From: Thermoanaerobacteraceae bacterium
GTDB taxonomy: Bacteria; Bacillota; Thermoanaerobacteria; Thermoanaerobacterales; UBA4877
Assembly (NCBI GenBank): GCA_030016635.1
Contig: JASEJQ010000019.1
Coordinates: 1 to 37,817 of the forward strand
Direction: 5' to 3'
Length of the DNA stretch: 37,817 nucleotides
The position numbers and the translations under genes are program-made. Positions 42 to 18,612 of the stretch are shown piece after piece. The notes beneath the pieces were generated by a model. The model searched no databases. It was not told where the DNA came from and was given only the letters and a program-made list of their open reading frames with translations. Every line of letters begins with the position of its first letter. The stretch's first letter is position 1.

Positions 42-1209
42 CTATCTCAGCAACTGTAATACTGTCTGTGGTTGTGCATTTGCCTGCGCTCTTCCAGGCT
101 GGTGCCTTTCGGCTACCGAACAGACTATATCTTCATCCTGCAATATCTGCAGGAGCCGGGCGCTTCGGGATTAATCCCTACAGACCTCATCACCATGAGC
201 CAATGCTTTTAGGTGGTACGTCTTAGTCGTTGAACCTTCCCCATCCTTTCGGAACAGGGGCTCGGCTGCTGATTGGCCAATCCTTTTATTTCTCAAACCA
301 TCGCACCTGCTGTTTCCAGCTATGCTGTGGTATAAAGGGCTCTAAGGCTTTTCCAGCAATTCACCCGGTAATCCTCCAGGAAATTACTTTCCAGGACGCC
401 TGTGAGAATGGCTATGCAGCCATTTCGTCAAGCATTGCGGTCGCCGCCTGCTGTAGTATATTGTTCTTAGTGAACTCCATCATCTCTTTTGCCATGTCTA
501 CGTCACGGATACGGGATTCGGCTGCGGTGAGGTTTTCTGATGCGGTGCCAAGGTTGTTTATGGTATGTTCGAGACGGTTTTGGACAGAACCGAGTTTTGC
601 TCTTTCACCAGATACTGCGTTAATTGCATTATCAATGGTTGTAATATAACCAGAAATTGTGCTGGCATCTGTGGCGGTGCTAACATCTATAGTATTAACG
701 GTCAATGATGATGAATCCATTGTAGCTATAGTCAAACTTATAAACTGTGATGAATTTGCACCGATTTGGAAGTTCAATGCTGTACTACTAAAAGTACCAT
801 CTAAAAGTTTTTGGGTATTGAATTCAGTATCTGTAGCTATTCTGTTGATTTCTTCTTGTAGCTGACTGATTTCTTTTTGAATATTTGCACGATCTTCAGA
901 AGTGTTTGTGTCACTTGCTGCCTGAACAACCAGCTCTCTCATCCTCTGGAGGATTGAGTGGGTCTCATTTAATGCACCCTCTGCTGTCTGTATAAGGGAT
1001 ATGCCGTCCTGGGCATTCCTCTGAGCCTGGTCCAATCCCCTGATTTGACCTCTCATCTTCTCTGATATGGCCAATCCTGCGGCGTCGTCACCAGCACGGT
1101 TAATCCTGAGGCCTGATGAGAGCTTTTCCAGCGACTTCTGGGTATTTGTGTCATTGATTGATAACTGCCTGTAAGTGTTTAAGGCAGATATGTTGTGGTT
1201 TATTATCAT
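42..1209 (-). CDS. hag: Flagellin, gene interrupted by a group I intron
   Basis: Structural protein of the flagellar filament, exported through the flagellar type III apparatus. Exon 1 is 1209-431 and exon 2 is 90-42, joined as 828 nt (275 aa). The N-terminal D0/D1 region is canonical (MIINHNISALNTYRQLSIND, then SSGLRINRAGDDAAGLAISE), and the C-terminal D1 helix carries SRIRDVDMAKEMMEFTKNNI. Read without splicing, the frame ends after AMLDEMAA at 412. The missing flagellin tail AQANAQPQTVLQLLR is encoded at 89-45, beyond a 340-nt insertion that has group I intron structure. Joining T431 to A90 gives AMLAQANAQPQTVLQLLR and a stop. The variable D2/D3 domains are nearly absent, so this is a short flagellin. 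The start has an AAGGAGG ribosome site and a sigma-28 promoter upstream. hag is the Bacillus/Clostridia name (fliC elsewhere). Confidence 0.93.
91..430 (-). ncRNA. Group I self-splicing intron in flagellin
   Basis: A 340-nt insertion in the codons for the flagellin C-terminus. The four conserved group I elements occur in order on the minus strand: P (AATTGCTGGAAA, about 360-350), Q (AATCAGCAGCCGAGCCCC, 274-257), R (GTTCAACGACTAAGACG, 235-219) and S (AAGATATAGTC, 133-123). P4 pairs TGCTG with CAGCA, and P7 pairs GACTA (228-224) with TAGTC (127-123). A P6 hairpin CCCC..TCC-GAAA-GGA..GGGG lies at about 260-241, and hairpins occur at 158-140 and 120-108. P1 can form between exon/intron ATGCT|TG and an internal guide CAGGCGT, with a U-G wobble exactly at the splice site (T431). 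The intron ends in G (91). It has no homing endonuclease ORF. Exact splice sites are inferred from P1, the terminal G and the restored reading frame; a convincing P10 was not found. Confidence 0.93.
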
Positions 1210-1405: not shown

Positions 1406-2143
1406 CTAGAAGCTTATCTCCTCTATATCATCCCAGCTTAGCTCAAAGTCCTGGTCATCTATGCTATCCAGTGATACGGGTTTGCCGTTGCAGAGCCTGT
1501 TATACTCACAGTATGCACATTTTCTCCTGTCATCTGTGGGCTTAAACTCGGTGTCTTTCAGTATCTGGCTTACAAGGCCGGATATTTTTATTTCGTCCTT
1601 TTCAAACCGGTATGAGTCATAATCTATCCTGACCGGTGAGGAGGGGTAGCTCGGGTTGAAGTACGTGATGGAGATATCGGAGGGCCTTATGTCCTCTTTT
1701 ATTGTCTTACCGGCCGCTGCCATGGTGTAGAGGTACAACCTTGTCTGTATGTCATCCCGGAGTTTTTCTGCATTTGGCCTGGCTGCTTCCGCCTTCCAGT
1801 CGTATATCTCCACGGTCTCCCCTATGATTATCAGGTCATACCTTACTGTAAGACGCATCTCCCCGTTGTTGTACCTGATGGTGTATTCGGGCAGGTATTC
1901 TTTCCCAGGCTCTATGGGCAAAAATGAGATGGCTGCAGAGACCAGGTCCATATTTTTACCTGAGAGGGGCAGGCCCAGGAAGTGCCTCCTCATGTCGAGG
2001 TGAAATTCGCTTCCCTCTTTTGCAGATGGTGAATCAAACCTCCAGTAGAGGCCGTCTATATACCTGTTTTTAAACCTGTAGGGACAGCTCAAATATGTCT
2101 TTAGTGTTGTCTGACTGAAGTACATCCTTTTTATATCCTCCAT
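1406..2143 (-). CDS. RecB/Cas4-family PD-(D/E)XK nuclease with Fe-S cluster motif
   Basis: Predicted 245-aa single-domain exonuclease of the RecB/AddB/Cas4 type (PDDEXK_1). All family motifs are visible: His48 (SEFHLD), Asp103 (RYDLI), the D-W-K catalytic core at 115-117 (EIYDWKAE) and the QxxxY-like QTRLYLY at 133-139. Cys20 (LSCPYRF) plus Cys209, Cys212 and Cys218 (CAYCEYNRLC) have the four-cysteine spacing of the 4Fe-4S clamp in AddB and Cas4. It is the last gene of a three-gene operon and overlaps the upstream helicase by 13 nt, with AGGAG before its start. No cas genes or CRISPR array are present, so it is not called Cas4. The inferred role is the nuclease subunit of a split AddAB-like DNA-end processing complex. 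Confidence 0.85.
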   Translation of the reverse strand: MEDIKRMYFSQTTLKTYLSCPYRFKNRYIDGLYWRFDSPSAKEGSEFHLDMRRHFLGLPLSGKNMDLVSAAISFLPIEPGKEYLPEYTIRYNNGEMRLTVRYDLIIIGETVEIYDWKAEAARPNAEKLRDDIQTRLYLYTMAAAGKTIKEDIRPSDISITYFNPSYPSSPVRIDYDSYRFEKDEIKISGLVSQILKDTEFKPTDDRRKCAYCEYNRLCNGKPVSLDSIDDQDFELSWDDIEEISF

Positions 2144-4296
2144 TTTGACCTCTCCTCCTGTATGAATTCATAGAATATCTTTCTAAAGAGCCTGTTATCC
2201 AGGGGCTTATCAAAGATATCATTTTTGTGGCTGGTTATGACCAGGGTCTCCTTGGCCCGTGTAATGCCTACATAGAGCAGTCTTAGGTTTTCGGCTATAA
2301 TGTTTAGCTTTGCCTGGATTCTAAAGTCCGGGTCTACATTTTTGCCCATAAGGCTTTTAAATTCTGCCTCAATGAGGGAGAAGGGATTTCTCTCTTCTTC
2401 TTTAAGATACCACGTCTCGCCTATGAAGCTGTGGGTCAAAAGCAGGGGGAAGTCTCTGGCCTCTACAGTACCCATGAAGACATTGTCCCACTCTAAGCCC
2501 TTGGCTTTGTGGTAGGTGAGGACCATTACCTCGCCTGGTTTGGCCTCGAACCCCTTCCTCTGGTAAAACAACTCAGCCAGGTCGTTGTACCTGTTTTTGG
2601 TAGAGCCCAGTTCATCTATCACATCTTCTATCCTCCAGCCGGGGTCATAGAGCCGCTTTCTTGCCTCCTCTGCCACTGCCTCGCCTATGGCCCTGCTCTC
2701 TCCATCGGCCCTTAAGAGGTCTAAGATGTATATTATGAGTTTATCAATCCTCATGCCGCCGGCATCCAGCAGCTTTTTAGCTCCTTCCAGTGCATCATAG
2801 AAGATGTCCTTCTGCTCTTCGGCCACATCCTCAGGTAGGACAGGCAGTTTGTCCATGGGATAGAGTATATCCTCCACGTTGGAGCGGTGTATAAATAGGT
2901 TTATCGGGTGGACATCGCTTATCTCGGGGGCCAGTACATACCTCATTATGTCTATTAGGTTATCCGTGCGTTCCGGCCTGTTTATGAACTTGAGGCAGTA
3001 ATAGATCTTCCTTGTGATGAGGTCACCGGCAGGGTAGCTGGATACCTCTACCGCTTTTATACCGCTGTTCTGCAGGATTTCCATCATGGACTCCACCTGT
3101 TTGTTTGTCCTGAGGAGAACTGCGCACGTTTTTTTGTCGTGGCGCTCCAAGTACTTTGCTGCGAGGGTAGATATATATGAAAACTCCTTCTCCTCATTTT
3201 CCAGTTCGTAGTATCCTATGCCGTATTTTGGATTTTGAGGATTTTTAAAGTCGTCGTCATCTACTGGCTGTATAAGCTGATACTCTAAGGCATCCTTCAC
3301 ATTGGCCAGCTCATCCATGGTCTTTACACTCTCCACTAAGTGATTGGCAAGCCTTATCACCTCTACGGAGCTCCTGCCCGATGTCTTTATCTCCCTTTTG
3401 TCATTGGCTTCGATAAAACCTGTGAAGAGCTTGGGGTCTGCTATGGTAAAGGTGGATAGTATGGCCTGGTTGGGGTCGCCCACACGCACCAGATTGCCGC
3501 ACTTCTCCGAGAGGAGCTGCATTATTTTCTCCTGCAGGAGGTTGGAGTCCTGAGCTTCGTCCTCAAAGAAATAGTTCCACCTGTCCTGAAATCTCGATAG
3601 TATCGCCGGGTACGATATAAGCAGCCTGTATGCCATGAGTATGAGGTCGCCGAAGTCCACAGCACCTTCCATCCGCAGTCTGTTCTGATACATGTCGTAT
3701 ATCTCGACTGCCCAACGCAGGTATGAGTCTCCGGGAAGATTTAGTGCAGATGGGATGATGTCAAGGGGTGTACAGTTGTTGCCTTTGAAGAGGGATATGG
3801 CCCTGCCTACATCGGATGTAAACTCATCCCTGAACCTTTTTCTGTTTTTTTCTATCTGAGCCGGGGAAGCGGAGTCTTTAATCAGCAGCTTGGAGTAGAA
3901 GATATCCTCATGGGTAGAGAGCCAGGCCTCAAAGGCCTTTTTGAGTATGTTTGCCGATTCTAATTCGTCCAGTATGGTGTAGTCTTTGGCCAGGCCGAGA
4001 GAGGCGGGGCTCTCCTTTACAATGGTTGCCGCTAAGGAGTGGAGAGTCATGACATCATAGCTCTTTCCTGATATCCCCTTTTCCTTTAGAAGGCTGCTTA
4101 TCCTCTGCTTGAAGTTGGCCACAGCCGAGTTCATGTATGTCACTATGAGCACCCTTGCATCGGGCTCCGTTTCCAGTATATGGGCGGTAAGATGGGTGAG
4201 GAGGGTGGTCTTGCCTGCCCCTGGCACAGAGGGTATGGCAAGCCTGCCGCCCCTGTAGTATGTTAGAAATTCCTTAAGGTCGTTCCTTAGATTCAT
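2131..4296 (-). CDS. UvrD/PcrA-type (SF1A) ATP-dependent DNA helicase
   Basis: A 721-aa helicase of the UvrD/Rep/AddA group. Motif I is PGAGKTTLL near residues 25-33, motif II is DEAQD near 245, motif V is TYHKAKGLEWDNVF near 595 and motif VI is LLYVGITRAKETLV near 675, so all catalytic motifs look intact. It is shorter than AddA (about 1200 aa) and has no C-terminal nuclease domain; that activity is supplied by the separate downstream gene, which overlaps it by 13 nt. The start has a well-spaced AGGAGG. The gene 73 nt upstream encodes an AddB-like ATPase. The family moves 3'-5' on single-stranded DNA in recombination and repair; the specific role here is inferred from context. Confidence 0.88.
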   Translation of the reverse strand: MNLRNDLKEFLTYYRGGRLAIPSVPGAGKTTLLTHLTAHILETEPDARVLIVTYMNSAVANFKQRISSLLKEKGISGKSYDVMTLHSLAATIVKESPASLGLAKDYTILDELESANILKKAFEAWLSTHEDIFYSKLLIKDSASPAQIEKNRKRFRDEFTSDVGRAISLFKGNNCTPLDIIPSALNLPGDSYLRWAVEIYDMYQNRLRMEGAVDFGDLILMAYRLLISYPAILSRFQDRWNYFFEDEAQDSNLLQEKIMQLLSEKCGNLVRVGDPNQAILSTFTIADPKLFTGFIEANDKREIKTSGRSSVEVIRLANHLVESVKTMDELANVKDALEYQLIQPVDDDDFKNPQNPKYGIGYYELENEEKEFSYISTLAAKYLERHDKKTCAVLLRTNKQVESMMEILQNSGIKAVEVSSYPAGDLITRKIYYCLKFINRPERTDNLIDIMRYVLAPEISDVHPINLFIHRSNVEDILYPMDKLPVLPEDVAEEQKDIFYDALEGAKKLLDAGGMRIDKLIIYILDLLRADGESRAIGEAVAEEARKRLYDPGWRIEDVIDELGSTKNRYNDLAELFYQRKGFEAKPGEVMVLTYHKAKGLEWDNVFMGTVEARDFPLLLTHSFIGETWYLKEEERNPFSLIEAEFKSLMGKNVDPDFRIQAKLNIIAENLRLLYVGITRAKETLVITSHKNDIFDKPLDNRLFRKIFYEFIQEERSKWRI

Positions 4297-4369
4297 TGTA
4301 TAGTCCTCCTAAATGCTTATTCTCTTTAAAGGCTGCATTTGATGCTTGCCATCATTCTTTATAGACTTC

Positions 4370-6322
4370 CTACGGTATGATCCTGCATGTATTTTGTAGG
4401 TATTCCATCAGCATACCGTTTTGCTCGGTAAACCTTGGGGTGAGATGGCAGTCTATCACAATCAGGCTATCTCTACAGCGCTTTAAGAGATTGACTATCC
4501 TATTGGAGAGCATATAGCGTGAATACAGCTCCTCGGTATATGTGGTCCAGATCCCGTTCCATTCCGGGAGAAACACGTATGGGTTGGAAAGAGGCCTTAC
4601 CCCATTATCCTCCCAGTCTTTATCGGAGGCGTCCAGCCATATCTGCACCTTAGAGGCAAGAGGGTTCATTAGATAGGAGTAAGGCGTTGCTATGATGACA
4701 GCATCATCTGGCATTTCCTCTAAGATTTCAATACCTTTTACCCCGCGCTTTACAGAAGTGATGAAATCCCTGCCGTACATCTTACCGGGACTTATTACCT
4801 CCATTATCTTTATATAGCCGGATGCCATGTCTATCAGCATCTTTGTGGCCATGATATTTTCCCCCGCAGCGGGCAGCGGTATGAGGTAATCCCAGAGGAG
4901 CTTTTCTAAGAAAGAGTCTATGGGGATTTCCTCCGTATAGGTGCTTAACCAGTCCAGAAGCCTTTCATATTTGTCATTGCTGTTAAAGCCTATCCGCATA
5001 ATAGTTTTCTGGTCAAGATGGGATAAGGTATTTTTGCCCTCTACAAAGTCAGCCAGTATGGATGCCCTGACAGGGTCCATATCGAAACATGCGGTAAAGG
5101 TGTCCTTCAGCTCGCTGTGGGTTGGATGAATATCCCACCAGGGATGAGCCAGAAGGGTAAGGGTGACAGCGTTGCTTATAAATGGCTGGTCTATGAGCCT
5201 GCCGGTATTGGTAAGGGGAAAGGCTGGGATACCTGAGGCTTTAAGCCCTGATATCAGAAGTTCTTCTGTAACCGGGTCCAGATAGGGTGCTATCAGGGAT
5301 ATATCCCCGGGTTTAAAGCCTGCTGAAATGAGTTTTTTAACCTCTTCAACAGCAGAGTACACCATATCGCTCTTGTATTCACACTCCACCAGCCTCACCG
5401 GGGAGGAAACGATATTAAAGGTTCCATCATTGATGTTTGACTGCAGGGCATTGGAGAGGTTTATCATACTCTCTGATGATGTATAGCTCTTATCCAGATC
5501 TTCTATGCTGCACCTTCCTTCCAATTCATTTAATGCATAGGAAGGTGAGGCACCGAGCACCATAGAGTATCCGCCATCGGTGGAGAAGGCAAGGTATGCC
5601 TCCTCAAAGCTATTTAAGAAAGAGGATATGAATGAGACCATGGAGGGGTTGGACTCTTCCAGATTGTCAACGAATAGATATTTAAACCTCTTTTCAAATT
5701 GCTTTCGGTATATCTCAGTGTCCCTCAGAAAGTTATTGTAGAGGTACGCCGTGAGGCCGTAGTCAATGAGCCCATGGCTCAAGAGGAGGTCTATATATTC
5801 ATCGAGGGCCTTCTCCATGTCCTTGTAGACTATTGGGTTTTTGTTAGGGTGAGAGGATATCAGTATATTGGAGATATCATGGTAGTCTATGAGGGATGAG
5901 ACAGCCCTGGAGAAATTGTGCATTATCTCTAAAGATATGCTGTCTGATGTGGCCTTTATATCGAGGAAGGCCCCCTCTCTTTGCAACCTCTCCACAATTT
6001 TCCTCATTATTTCATGGGCGGTGAGTGCGTCTATGAGTACAGGCTGCGGCTCCTTTACCTCAATCCTGCTGCAGTTTTCCAGTACAGCCGGCCAGAATAG
6101 CATAAGCTCTTCAGTTATGAAGCGGGGAAATGTGGTTATGTTTATGCCGGTATTAATCACAAGATCTATATTTTTCCTTATATGATTCATATTGGGTTTA
6201 TTTAATGTAAAGAACAGTATTTCATCTGTCCTTGAATGTCTTTCAGTGAGTTCCATGAGCTTATTTATAAGGTAGGTGGTCTTGCCGCTTCCGGCCTGGC
6301 CTTTTATAAGGAGTGGAGTCAA
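4370..6322 (-). CDS. AddB-like/UvrD-related ATPase, degenerate Walker B
   Basis: About 650 aa. Walker A is intact (GQAGSGKTTYL within the first 20 residues), but the motif II region reads YLFVDNLEESN near residue 220, so the usual DExxD is altered. The C-terminal part contains VWLDASDKDWEDNG, reminiscent of helicase motif regions in AddB/RecC-like proteins. It lacks the C-terminal nuclease and cysteine cluster of real AddB; these occur in the third gene of the operon. A TTG start at 6322 is chosen because GAGGTGA sits 5 nt upstream. A GTG at 6331 would add three residues but has no ribosome site. It is the first gene of the helicase-nuclease operon. A structural or end-recognition role is inferred, as for AddB beside AddA. 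Confidence 0.7.
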   Translation of the reverse strand: MTPLLIKGQAGSGKTTYLINKLMELTERHSRTDEILFFTLNKPNMNHIRKNIDLVINTGINITTFPRFITEELMLFWPAVLENCSRIEVKEPQPVLIDALTAHEIMRKIVERLQREGAFLDIKATSDSISLEIMHNFSRAVSSLIDYHDISNILISSHPNKNPIVYKDMEKALDEYIDLLLSHGLIDYGLTAYLYNNFLRDTEIYRKQFEKRFKYLFVDNLEESNPSMVSFISSFLNSFEEAYLAFSTDGGYSMVLGASPSYALNELEGRCSIEDLDKSYTSSESMINLSNALQSNINDGTFNIVSSPVRLVECEYKSDMVYSAVEEVKKLISAGFKPGDISLIAPYLDPVTEELLISGLKASGIPAFPLTNTGRLIDQPFISNAVTLTLLAHPWWDIHPTHSELKDTFTACFDMDPVRASILADFVEGKNTLSHLDQKTIMRIGFNSNDKYERLLDWLSTYTEEIPIDSFLEKLLWDYLIPLPAAGENIMATKMLIDMASGYIKIMEVISPGKMYGRDFITSVKRGVKGIEILEEMPDDAVIIATPYSYLMNPLASKVQIWLDASDKDWEDNGVRPLSNPYVFLPEWNGIWTTYTEELYSRYMLSNRIVNLLKRCRDSLIVIDCHLTPRFTEQNGMLMEYLQNTCRIIP

Positions 6323-6405
6323 GTATGTCACCTCATTTATCAGGATTGACTATGTATAACAATATTATATCAAAAGAGGGATTCCTGTACAGGTCATTTA
6401 TGAGC

Positions 6406-6433
6406 AAAGGCTGCTGGAATTCCAGCAGCCTTT
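6406..6433 (-). terminator. Stem-loop after encapsulin operon
   Basis: A perfect 28-nt palindrome (AAAGG, then CTGCTGGAA and its complement, then CCTTT) starts 3 nt past the stop codon of the ferritin-like cargo gene. It is GC-rich with short T runs on both sides, so it can end the minus-strand encapsulin operon and separate it from the helicase operon. Confidence 0.7.
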
Positions 6434-6436
6434 TGT

Positions 6437-6760
6437 TTAAGCATTTCCTACTGTAAACCCACCAGCGGCCTCTTCTGATTTTGTCCCGCCTGCAAAGTGG
6501 TCATTCTCAAACTTGAGATTTTGTGTGGCATCAAACCTTCTTAAGAGGTTGGTGAGCTCTGCAAGATGCTCTTTCTCATCGTCCCTTATATGTGACAGTA
6601 TTTCCTTTATTTCAGGTATGTCTATGGAGTCTATATGATACTGATAATTGTCTATTGCACCAATCTCTCCCGCTATGTCCTCTCTTACCCAGATGAGGAA
6701 CTGCTCTAAGCCCTCAGTCTTATAACCGCTTACTTTGTTTTCTCCATTTTCGTATGCCAT
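6437..6760 (-). CDS. Encapsulated ferritin-like protein (encapsulin cargo)
   Basis: A 107-aa four-helix-half ferritin-like protein of the EncFtn type, which oxidises Fe(II) inside an encapsulin shell. Glu32, Glu62 and His65 (in GEIGAID and DDEKEH) fall at the same numbers as the ferroxidase residues described for Rhodospirillum rubrum EncFtn. The C-terminus, after a flexible Gly/Glu-rich linker from about residue 90, ends GGFTVGNA, which resembles the short TVG-type cargo-loading peptide that docks inside encapsulins. It lies 2 nt downstream of the encapsulin gene, and its AGGAGG overlaps the encapsulin 3' end. The family call is well supported by context and motifs. The terminal peptide as targeting signal is inferred. 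Confidence 0.9.
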   Translation of the reverse strand: MAYENGENKVSGYKTEGLEQFLIWVREDIAGEIGAIDNYQYHIDSIDIPEIKEILSHIRDDEKEHLAELTNLLRRFDATQNLKFENDHFAGGTKSEEAAGGFTVGNA

Positions 6761-6762
6761 TT

Positions 6763-7578
6763 CTATACCTCCTTCTTATATGTCAGAGCGACAATGCTCT
6801 CAGAATTTTTTACCCTCAGGCCAAGTATCTCAAATACCCTGAAATAGTGGTTCATGTCTGTGGTCTCAAGGAACGAGGTAATCATATCCTGGCCCACAAC
6901 AAGGTCCATGTTCTGGCTGCCGGTGGATACGATGAAGCCATCATTATCCTTAAGTACCGGGGAGGTATATATCTTCACTCCCAGTTTCTCTATCCTCTCG
7001 GAGTCCAGATATGGTGTATCTTTGTATACCTTATTGAGTGCTGTATTCAGTGCCGGGCTTACCACCAGCACATAGGGTCCGAACATATACTTGCTTCTTA
7101 AGAGTGCCAGGGCATTTACTACATCATCATAGGCGCTGCCTTCCTGCCAGTCGCTTATGGAGTATTGCAGCCTGCCTGCGGCGTTGAGTATGCCCTCTAT
7201 TCCCCTTGTGTCATCTCCATAAAATAACAGCTTATCCTCCTCGGCCGCGAGGAGTGTAGCTGCATATGAAGCTCTGGTTAAATCTAAAGGAAGATTGTTC
7301 TCCTCATAATACTGGATATCCCTCCACGGATAAACAAAATCCCTGTATATTGTATTTAATGGGATAAAGGTCTTGCCGCTGCTACCTATTATGTCTCCTT
7401 CGCCCTCTACCAGCTTGTCCTTGGGTACTACAAATGTACCGGGGCCTACAGGGCCAAAGAGCGGTATAAACTTTCTTCCTACCAGCACGGACTTTGCAGC
7501 ATTTACCGCTGCCTGGTCAATGGCAGCCCACTGCTCAGTGGAGAACGGTGAAGCCTCTCTTGATAAATAATCAGCCAT
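6763..7578 (-). CDS. Encapsulin shell protein (family 1)
   Basis: A 271-aa HK97-fold shell protein that self-assembles into an icosahedral nanocompartment. The N-terminus (YLSREASPFSTEQWAAID) and the following RKFIPLFGPVGPG segment are characteristic of family 1 encapsulins (linocin/CFP29 type), and the length matches the roughly 265-aa Thermotoga protein. The ATG at 7578 is preferred because AAAGGAGG is 7 nt upstream; the ATG at 7584 is only 1 nt from that site. An extended -10 promoter lies at 7612-7620. With the ferritin-like cargo gene just downstream, the compartment is an iron store or oxidative-stress buffer. No prophage genes are nearby. Confidence 0.95.
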   Translation of the reverse strand: MADYLSREASPFSTEQWAAIDQAAVNAAKSVLVGRKFIPLFGPVGPGTFVVPKDKLVEGEGDIIGSSGKTFIPLNTIYRDFVYPWRDIQYYEENNLPLDLTRASYAATLLAAEEDKLLFYGDDTRGIEGILNAAGRLQYSISDWQEGSAYDDVVNALALLRSKYMFGPYVLVVSPALNTALNKVYKDTPYLDSERIEKLGVKIYTSPVLKDNDGFIVSTGSQNMDLVVGQDMITSFLETTDMNHYFRVFEILGLRVKNSESIVALTYKKEV

Positions 7579-7611
7579 CTTCATACCTCCTTTTCTTATA
7601 TTTGTACTAAT

Positions 7612-7620
7612 ATTATATCA
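7612..7620 (-). promoter_or_regulatory. Extended -10 promoter of encapsulin operon
   Basis: On the minus strand TGA-TATAAT (7620-7612) is an extended -10 element about 35 nt upstream of the encapsulin start. No good -35 box is seen at 17 nt, which an extended -10 can tolerate. Confidence 0.55.
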
Positions 7621-7688
7621 CATTCACCAGTGTTTTCCTACAAGTTATTATTATTTAATATCATGATTCAGGTGTAATAAATCTATTT

Positions 7689-7811
7689 ATGAATGATAGA
7701 AACATCCATGCACTTGACGCTCGTCTTGATACAACAAGGTCAAGTGGCATCTCTACGTTAATGATGGGCTCTGTGGATGAGGAATGTCCTCATTGGAAAT
7801 GTCAGGTGTAA
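7689..7811 (+). other. 40-codon ORF of unknown status
   Basis: An open frame of 40 codons starts with ATG at 7689 and ends in TAA at 7809-7811 (begins MNDRNIHALDARLD, ends EECPHWKCQV). Its ribosome site is weak (AGGTG, far upstream). The 9-mer CAGGTGTAA occurs just before it (7669-7677) and again at its end (7803-7811). It contains inverted repeats (CACTTGA/TCAAGTG and GAGG/CCTC). It may be the left part of the same repetitive element as the GC-rich block that follows, not a gene. Confidence 0.25.
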
Positions 7812-7828
7812 GGAGTCGTTTTAGTCAG

Positions 7829-8040
7829 TAGTGAAGGCTTTGGCGCCCGATCGTTCGGCAAACCGCTCTAATGCTCGCTCCTTCGCTCGGCAGGGTACGC
7901 CTCCATTCGGCGTCCTCGCCTTAAGGTCGGCTCATCCGGCGTCCATGCCGGATGTCCCTGCCTCGCTTGTTTCGAGGGTAAGAGCGGCTAAGCCTTACTT
8001 TAAGGTGCCTCCAGCCTTTACATGCCGACTCTGCCTACTT
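7829..8040. other. GC-rich, dyad-rich intergenic element
   Basis: This roughly 210-nt block is clearly richer in G+C than the DNA around it and full of short inverted repeats: CATCCGGC/GCCGGATG near 7929-7950, CCTCG/CGAGG near 7960-7976, and CGCC/GGCG near 7909-7923. GAGCGA-type words also recur directly. A 75-codon frame crosses it (GTG at 7831), but its composition (Arg/Ala/Pro/Ser-rich) looks like a by-product of GC-rich sequence. It resembles an intergenic repeat or structured RNA from elsewhere, and could be a decayed insertion. No tRNA, riboswitch or IS signature was recognised. Confidence 0.45.
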
Positions 8041-8079
8041 TATGCAGTGGAATCATAACAACATCAACAAATCCAACTA

Positions 8080-8114
8080 AAATACTTGTATTTCTGTTAT
8101 TCTTATGGTATAAA
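8080..8114 (+). promoter_or_regulatory. suf promoter with overlapping palindromic operator
   Basis: TTGTAT (8086-8091), a 17-nt spacer and TATAAA (8109-8114) form a sigma-A promoter for sufCBDSU. The -35 box lies inside a palindrome, AAATACTTGTATTT (8080-8093). The 10-mer AAAATACTTG occurs here (8079-8088) and again at 8134-8143, between promoter and sufC. This layout suggests a repressor; an Rrf2/IscR-type regulator is a reasonable guess for a SUF operon, but no such gene is in the window. Confidence 0.6.
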
Positions 8115-17784: not shown

Positions 17785-17810
17785 TAGGTTGAAAAAATTT
17801 AAGAGACTGT

Positions 17811-17900
17811 GTCCGCTGGGGGAGCATTAAGCTGAGATCGTAGAGCAATCTACGGACCCCTTGAACCTGTCCAGGTAATGCTGGCGTAGGGAAAGCGGGT
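17811..17900 (+). promoter_or_regulatory. TPP (thi-box) riboswitch aptamer
   Basis: The conserved TPP aptamer elements are present: GGGGGAGC, GCTGAGA, ACCCCTTGAACCTG and GGTAATGCTGGCGTAGGGAA. P1 pairs CCGCT (17813-17817) with AGCGG (17894-17898). It precedes thiT and a terminator hairpin, so it acts by TPP-dependent transcription termination. Confidence 0.97.
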
Positions 17901-17902
17901 TT

Positions 17903-17931
17903 CCGCCGTGACCTACAGGTTGCGGTTTTTT
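17903..17931 (+). terminator. Riboswitch expression-platform terminator
   Basis: A hairpin CCGC..ACCT-ac-AGGT..GCGG is followed by TTTTTT (17926-17931). It follows the 3' strand of P1 closely, so P1 stability can decide whether the terminator or an alternative structure forms. Confidence 0.82.
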
Positions 17932-17967: not shown

Positions 17968-18612
17968 ATGTCCAATTTCTTAAGTTCTATATTTGGTGAC
18001 TTTGCCCAGATACGTTCAGTTACTGTTGCTGTCATTGCGATTTTGATTGCAGCGGCAGCGGTGTTTCACTTCTACAGGGACAGATTCAGGTTTGACACAA
18101 AGACAATCGTATATGGTGGGCTATGCATAGCCCTGTCATTCCTGCTATCCTATATCAGGTTTTACCACTGGCCACAGGGAGGGTCTATAACCCCCGGTAG
18201 TATGCTGCCGCTCTTCATATATGCATACTACTTTGGACCGGTGGCAGGGATAACTGCGGGGGCAGCCTATGGGATACTACAGCTCATACAGGACCCATAT
18301 ATACTTCACTGGGCACAGGTGCTTTTAGACTATCCACTGCCTTTTGCTGCACTGGGCCTGGCCGGTTTCTTTAAGAATAACCTGAGGCTGGGGATCCTTG
18401 CCGGAGGATTTGGCAGGTTTTTCTTCCATTTCTTATCCGGAGTGATATTCTTTGGGTCTTATGCACCTCCAGGTATGAGTCCTGTGGTCTACTCAATAGC
18501 TGTAAACGGCTCCATAATAGGTACAGAGGTTGCAATCTGCTTTGCCATATCACTGGTACCTCAGTTTTACAATGCTGTTCAGGACCTGAGACACAACATA
18601 ATAAGAGCATAA
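17968..18612 (+). CDS. thiT: ThiT, thiamine ECF transporter S component
   Basis: A 214-aa membrane protein with about six helices, the substrate-binding unit of an energy-coupling-factor thiamine importer. Family features are the segment SYIRFYHWPQGGSITPGSML at about 59-78, FGPVAGITAGAAYGILQLI, and the GFGRFFFHFLSGVIFFG stretch that lines the thiamine site. The N-terminus has an extra hydrophobic helix compared with the shortest ThiT proteins. GGGAGG precedes the start. It sits directly under a TPP riboswitch. The shared EcfA/EcfT energising module is not in the window. Confidence 0.95.
   Translation: MSNFLSSIFGDFAQIRSVTVAVIAILIAAAAVFHFYRDRFRFDTKTIVYGGLCIALSFLLSYIRFYHWPQGGSITPGSMLPLFIYAYYFGPVAGITAGAAYGILQLIQDPYILHWAQVLLDYPLPFAALGLAGFFKNNLRLGILAGGFGRFFFHFLSGVIFFGSYAPPGMSPVVYSIAVNGSIIGTEVAICFAISLVPQFYNAVQDLRHNIIRA

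Follow-up and report, generated by a model that had tools for sequence, protein, structure and literature searches.

The window analysed here is a 37,817-nt stretch of DNA from a Thermoanaerobacteraceae bacterium, and its minus strand carries three genes in head-to-tail orientation, flanked upstream by encapsulin genes and downstream by a flagellin gene. The first encodes a 653-residue ATPase or pseudo-helicase subunit with an SF1A (UvrD) fold (positions 4370-6331), the second a 721-residue UvrD-type SF1A DNA helicase subunit with intact helicase motifs and no nuclease domain (2131-4296), and the third a 245-residue stand-alone RecB/Cas4-type PD-(D/E)XK nuclease with four conserved cysteines (1406-2143). 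A gap of 73 nt separates the ATPase and helicase genes and the helicase and nuclease genes overlap by 13 nt, in keeping with the order and tight packing given in the original prediction; AGGAGG-type ribosome-binding sites precede both the helicase and the nuclease genes. The ATPase ORF starts with GTG at position 6331, and position 6322 is an in-frame TTG three codons inside it. Just upstream of this start, on the same strand, lies a promoter-like site (6364-6391: TGTACA, 16 nt, TATAAT and an extended -10 TG), which is a consensus match only and is among the two best-scoring of the region, where the scan found 14 sites against 11.2 expected by chance.

The flanking encapsulin genes, also on the minus strand, encode a Family 1 encapsulin shell (6763-7584) and an EncB-family ferritin-like cargo protein (6437-6760) directly upstream of the trio, and the sister genus keeps this arrangement upstream of its own trio (L026:3844-4991). 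On the other side, a Group I intron (100-417, minus strand; Rfam 77.7 bits) abuts the flagellin ORF (412-1209), and a flagellin-like C-terminus (QANAQPQTVLQLLR) lies beyond the intron at roughly 45-100, so that the flagellin gene appears to be intron-interrupted. Elsewhere in the window, an ordinary TPP riboswitch (17808-17910, plus strand) sits upstream of a thiamine transporter gene (17968-18612, plus strand).

The ATPase subunit has the two features first ascribed to it, namely an intact Walker A (GQAGSGKT) and a degenerate DNLEE in motif II. Its Pfam match to UvrD-helicase is weak (E 1.3e-13), Pfam finds no ADDB_N domain in it, and none of the members tested from cyanobacteria, Salinibacter, Tepidibacter and Romboutsia has a Pfam match; the subunit is mostly unnamed in databases, which makes the whole set easily overlooked. 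An AlphaFold model (pLDDT 91) has the full SF1A fold and is closest to UvrD and Rep, followed by AddB, AddA and AdnB (TMq 0.60-0.65 for AddB and 0.67 for AdnB), and profile comparison places the protein equally near AddA and AddB, at about 2e-17 each. Across the family alignment, the Walker A lysine is kept in 61 of 63 ATPases and the Walker B aspartate in all 63, and the catalytic glutamate of the DExx motif is lost in 62 of the 63, replaced by D, N, S, G or R. One member, from a Romboutsia-type locus (L096:1529-3433), has lost Walker A. A precedent for a conserved Walker A with a lost catalytic glutamate is AddAB, where ATP at the second site, in AddB, modulates Chi complexes though AddB is not the motor (PMC4824097); by analogy with that site we infer a sensing role for the ATPase.

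The helicase subunit is likewise intact and nuclease-free as predicted, with Pfam finding UvrD domains only (UvrD-helicase, E 1.4e-42; UvrD_C, E 1.6e-25) and no nuclease domain in its 721 residues. None of the helicase motifs checked varies among 61 sequences. By sequence the protein is nearest PcrA and UvrD; it matches the AddA profile strongly (4e-59) and scores 83.8 bits against the addA_Gpos model, below the cut-off of 707.65. Phylogenetically, 96 helicases of this type form one clade that excludes five AddA and three PcrA-like sequences, with moderate support (0.79).

The third protein proved to be a stand-alone RecB/Cas4 nuclease (Pfam PDDEXK_1, E 8.7e-25) whose four cysteines, C20, C209, C212 and C218, are placed as in Fe-S nucleases; these and H48, E86, D103, D115, K117, Q133 and Y137 are 98-100% conserved across the family. 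It matches the AddB profile at 4e-12, and its structural model (pLDDT 89) is nearest ACE1, then the nuclease domains of AdnA and AddB. ACE1, the Argonaute-associated Cas4-family nuclease of cyanobacteria (9iab, 9iac), is the closest solved relative, but besides its Argonaute association it differs in reaching only 29-40 bits by profile, against 111-132 bits for cyanobacterial nuclease subunits, a distance too great for one family; we regard the two as related but separate. None of the three proteins in the window reaches a curated equivalog cut-off for AddA, AddB, Cas4 or UvrD. Assignment of the nuclease to CRISPR Cas4 was rejected (TIGR00372, 28.5 bits against a cut-off of 65; flagellin and encapsulin genes, not cas1 and cas2, as flanks), as was assignment of the set to Gabija, since the GajB matches reflect generic UvrD similarity, the nuclease is of the PD-(D/E)XK type rather than an OLD-family GajA and the neighbours are again the flagellin and encapsulin genes. 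Nor is the set a UvrD-Cas4 fusion or a bacterial DNA2-like protein, given that no full-length locus read joins helicase and nuclease in one gene.

The first 101 relatives examined yielded full trios in G001, the sister genus (72-83% identity), and, at 23-35% identity, in G040, G045 and G086. A 398-genome sample of the phylum (Bacillota) gave 30 ATPase matches. Three of these, in G169, G370 and G408, were discounted because they probably reflect similarity to other UvrD proteins, and neither the G169 nor the G370 locus contains a trio. A single-sequence ATPase scan of genome contigs found nothing, whereas scanning 84,980 species genomes with a helicase alignment did find relatives; at least 491 were confirmed and 80 loci kept. 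The order ATPase-helicase-nuclease holds in 55 of 61 non-redundant helicase loci, with median spacings of -4 nt between ATPase and helicase and -11 nt between helicase and nuclease. With its residues and motifs conserved as given above, the trio is not a product of chance. Variants exist: Psychrilyobacter/Ilyobacter-type loci keep only helicase and nuclease together, and in Romboutsia-type loci (L096, L098 and L101) the nuclease gene overlaps addB, which addA follows.

A recJ gene, its identity checked by Pfam (PF01368, PF17768), follows the nuclease gene in 42 of the 61 loci, as the next gene in 38 of the 55 ordered loci and as the next but one in 4. It is not beside the trio in the window's genome, where the association could therefore not be noticed, nor in the sister genus or about a fifth of loci, so that RecJ may be a neighbour of the set rather than a partner. 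Divergence of the four proteins (ATPase, helicase, nuclease and RecJ) is correlated (r 0.90-0.94), as would be expected from vertical inheritance too. The other recurring neighbours are addAB and housekeeping genes; no recurrent defence genes were found among the identified neighbour families. The window genome's own recJ is on contig 29, away from the trio. Its neighbours at that site (L171:1147-7876) are a JetD-like gene (JetD_C, 113 bits) and an SMC/Rad50-like gene of 1,094 residues, which suggests a Wadjet-like locus.

The original prediction saw in the three genes the parts of AddAB distributed over three polypeptides, and this description holds: the parts form a conserved unit in many genomes, and the fold of the ATPase is AddB-, AdnB- and UvrD-like. 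As one of two alternatives it offered the trio as a minimal substitute for AddAB, a reading that fails for the window's genome. A PDDEXK_1 search there brought up another two large proteins, encoded next to each other as a complete and compact addB-addA pair on contig 92 (L006). The 763-residue AddB (5822-8113) matches ADDB_N and PDDEXK_1 and lacks Walker A, and the 938-residue AddA (3064-5880) has UvrD domains and PDDEXK_1; as an AddAB the pair (L006:3064-8113) is unusually compact. The supposition that this genome lacks AddAB was thereby rejected, so the trio is not standing in for a missing AddAB in it. The prediction was to be abandoned if a complete addAB were found elsewhere and the trio proved unconserved; the first is the case, and the second is not.

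Could the trio nevertheless be AddAB itself, or a remnant of it, with its domains separated into three genes that replace the original? The parts list is the same, the profile matches given above link the helicase to AddA and the ATPase and nuclease to AddB, and some genomes have the trio alone. No AddA- or AddB-sized protein was found in the sister genus (G001, 98% complete) or in Carboxydocella (G086, a one-contig chromosome; L119), nor is any UvrD-family protein of these two AddA-sized; none of AddAB size was seen in G124, G154 and G402, at 80-85% completeness. In some lineages the trio possibly substitutes for AddAB. On the other side, genuine AddAB accompanies the trio in the window's genome and proteins of AddA/AddB size with nuclease domains do so in most of 28 trio genomes, the ATPase is no nearer to AddB than to AddA, the helicase clade lies outside AddA and PcrA, and the Romboutsia-type trio is directly upstream of addB-addA. 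We therefore consider a split AddAB very unlikely; with its helicase clade apart from AddA and PcrA and its position directly upstream of addB-addA in some genomes, the trio would not be a broken-up AddAB by descent.

Feature by feature, the set resembles the AddAB (RexAB) of Firmicutes in having a single active SF1A motor, a pseudo-helicase that retains a second ATP site and a four-cysteine RecB-family nuclease; the layout is that of AddAB minus one nuclease, with the other set free. The differences are three polypeptides rather than two and one nuclease rather than two: the 721-residue helicase has no AddA-type C-terminal nuclease in the same polypeptide and falls outside the AddA clade, and ATPase and nuclease, which in AddB are a helicase-like domain fused to an Fe-S nuclease, are separate in every locus read. 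The trio also coexists with true AddAB and is linked to recJ. Mycobacterial AdnAB offers structural matches of AdnB to the ATPase and of the AdnA nuclease domain to the nuclease; however, AdnA and AdnB each fuse a motor to a nuclease, whereas the trio is unfused and has one nuclease. RecQ/UvrD-RecJ resection resembles the set in pairing a 3'-5' helicase with the 5'-3' single-strand exonuclease RecJ; the trio has a pseudo-helicase ATPase in addition, and an Fe-S nuclease. The best reading is that the trio, though akin to AddAB, AdnAB and RecBCD in its components and working logic, is a separate family with its subunits on three polypeptides.

In the three Fusobacteria and four cyanobacteria in which a helicase was found, all have a family ATPase elsewhere in the genome and all but one have the nuclease, so that a two-gene version in Fusobacteria and a solitary helicase in cyanobacteria were both rejected. 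The cyanobacterial proteins that were aligned have a Walker A of SGKT or TGKT, a degenerate motif II and the nuclease motifs DWKT and WQTRLY; the nuclease cysteines are present in three of four sequences, the fourth being a reading frame that stops short of them. ATPase and nuclease occur together in 167 of 194 genomes from the cyanobacterial phylum; a further 7 have the ATPase alone, none has the nuclease alone and 20 lack both (ATPase: 174 at E <= 1e-10, of which 168 at <= 1e-24; nuclease: 167 at E <= 1e-8), a co-occurrence with a Fisher p of 1e-21 in a test that ignores shared ancestry. The 20 genomes lacking both measure 1.6-3.0 Mb, a size that would suit marine picocyanobacteria. Six weak ATPase matches (E 1e-13 to 1e-19; G433, G439, G445, G447, G461 and G615) may be cross-hits.

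In photosynthetic cyanobacteria the trio genes are scattered and unlinked. In many small genomes of the phylum (1.6-2.3 Mb), which judging by their size probably belong to the non-photosynthetic lineage, the ATPase matches lie inside ORFs of about 1,300 residues. In each of the five such loci read (L201-L205), one ORF of this length encodes a fusion of ATPase and helicase (in L201, ATPase residues 2-621 and helicase 639-1280), and its last 7 to 17 nt are shared with the nuclease ORF; L206, L207 and L210, from the same phylum, have linked, unfused ATPase, helicase and nuclease genes in that order. No other finding argues as strongly for joint action of the three proteins as this fusion. The opposing view, that these are co-transcribed, independent DNA-metabolism proteins sharing no complex, draws on the unlinked parts in cyanobacteria and the variable adjacency of recJ; set against the fusion, the near-fixed gene order across phyla and the joint absence of ATPase and nuclease from 20 genomes, it appears highly improbable.

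The set also occurs on a plasmid. A tblastn search of plasmids returned two ATPase homologues, on the Salinibacter ruber plasmid pSR56 and on a large Ilyobacter replicon; no helicase homologue was found on plasmids at E 1e-50, and 50,697 phage records gave no match. The 56-kb pSR56 encodes in succession a hypothetical protein (the ATPase), an ATP-dependent helicase, a PD-(D/E)XK nuclease and recJ (L212:8950-16833), with profile scores of 454, 593 and 187 bits confirming ATPase, helicase and nuclease.

Part of the set has been noticed before. A 2017 survey describes a predicted operon, found mostly in Clostridiales and outside defence contexts, in which UvrD and a Cas4-like protein are encoded as an unfused pair, and suggests a repair role (Hudaiberdiev et al., 2017; PMC5704561). 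From that description, the operon is very probably the same helicase-nuclease pair as the trio's. RecJ has no occurrence in the text of the survey, and its operon passage names no ATPase, fusion or cyanobacterial set (PMC5704561). Our search, which covered open-access literature, found no account of the set as a whole, nor of the ATPase, the RecJ link, the fusion or the cyanobacterial distribution. The three-part set is thus apparently undescribed, with only the unfused pair noted before, in 2017.

A lead to function comes from transposon data on Synechococcus elongatus, in which loss of uvrD (a pcrA paralogue), recJcy, cas4 or a PD-(D/E)XK gene raises both RSF1010 plasmid establishment and natural transformation (PMC10653904). 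These four genes are candidate homologues of the set, and their phenotypes would fit a DNA-degrading helicase and nuclease acting with RecJ. They would also fit a defence system, one that serves to degrade the DNA of phages or plasmids instead of mending the chromosome: the S. elongatus genes limit plasmids and transformation along with Argonaute (PMC10653904), pSR56 carries the ATPase, helicase, nuclease and recJ genes, the nearest solved nuclease is the Argonaute-associated ACE1, and UvrD-Cas4 fusions occur in defence loci according to the 2017 survey (PMC5704561). Yet PADLOC yields only generic GajB and Cas4 cross-hits, recJ, addAB and housekeeping genes recur beside the set while no defence gene does so among the families identified, the set is near-universal in cyanobacteria and absent from the phage records, and the same survey judged the unfused context not indicative of defence (PMC5704561). 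Of the two roles that the original prediction allowed for a complex of its own, repair fits best and defence is the weaker, which we hold to be unlikely. RecBCD carries out both repair and the clearance of incoming DNA, so the two roles are not exclusive.

The three genes probably encode one heteromeric helicase-nuclease, composed of an active motor, an ATP-binding pseudo-helicase and an Fe-S nuclease, that would work with RecJ in processing DNA ends or gaps. In such a complex, the UvrD-type subunit would be the sole motor, presumably translocating 3'-5' on single-stranded DNA, and the degenerate subunit would bind ATP without efficient hydrolysis and act as a scaffold and as a sensor of DNA ends or of the single-strand path, like the pseudo-helicase domain of AddB. 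The small Fe-S nuclease would cut the strand fed to it, and RecJ, encoded beside the set in most Bacillota, would remove the 5' strand. DNA ends or gaps are predicted to be resected or degraded as a result, which would serve recombinational repair as well as clearance of incoming linear or plasmid DNA, alongside AddAB in genomes that have it and possibly in its place in those that do not.

The accepted bacterial helicase-nucleases for broken DNA are RecBCD, AddAB and AdnAB. The set may process broken DNA in bacteria without these textbook enzymes. For cyanobacteria, recC has been reported only from marine Synechococcus and Prochlorococcus (PMC5101192), which leaves most others without a complete RecBCD, and a resection role for the set in those organisms is plausible. 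Tentatively, the trio with RecJ could be a further class of end-processing helicase-nuclease, with three subunits plus RecJ, common to Bacillota, Fusobacteriota, Rhodothermota and Cyanobacteriota, on which cyanobacteria lacking RecBCD would chiefly rely for end resection. It could explain the joint appearance of uvrD, recJcy and the PD-(D/E)XK gene in the S. elongatus screen for barriers to plasmids and transformation and, since almost every genome sampled from the cyanobacterial phylum has it, the set together with RecJ is a concrete, deletable candidate for the missing broken-DNA activity.
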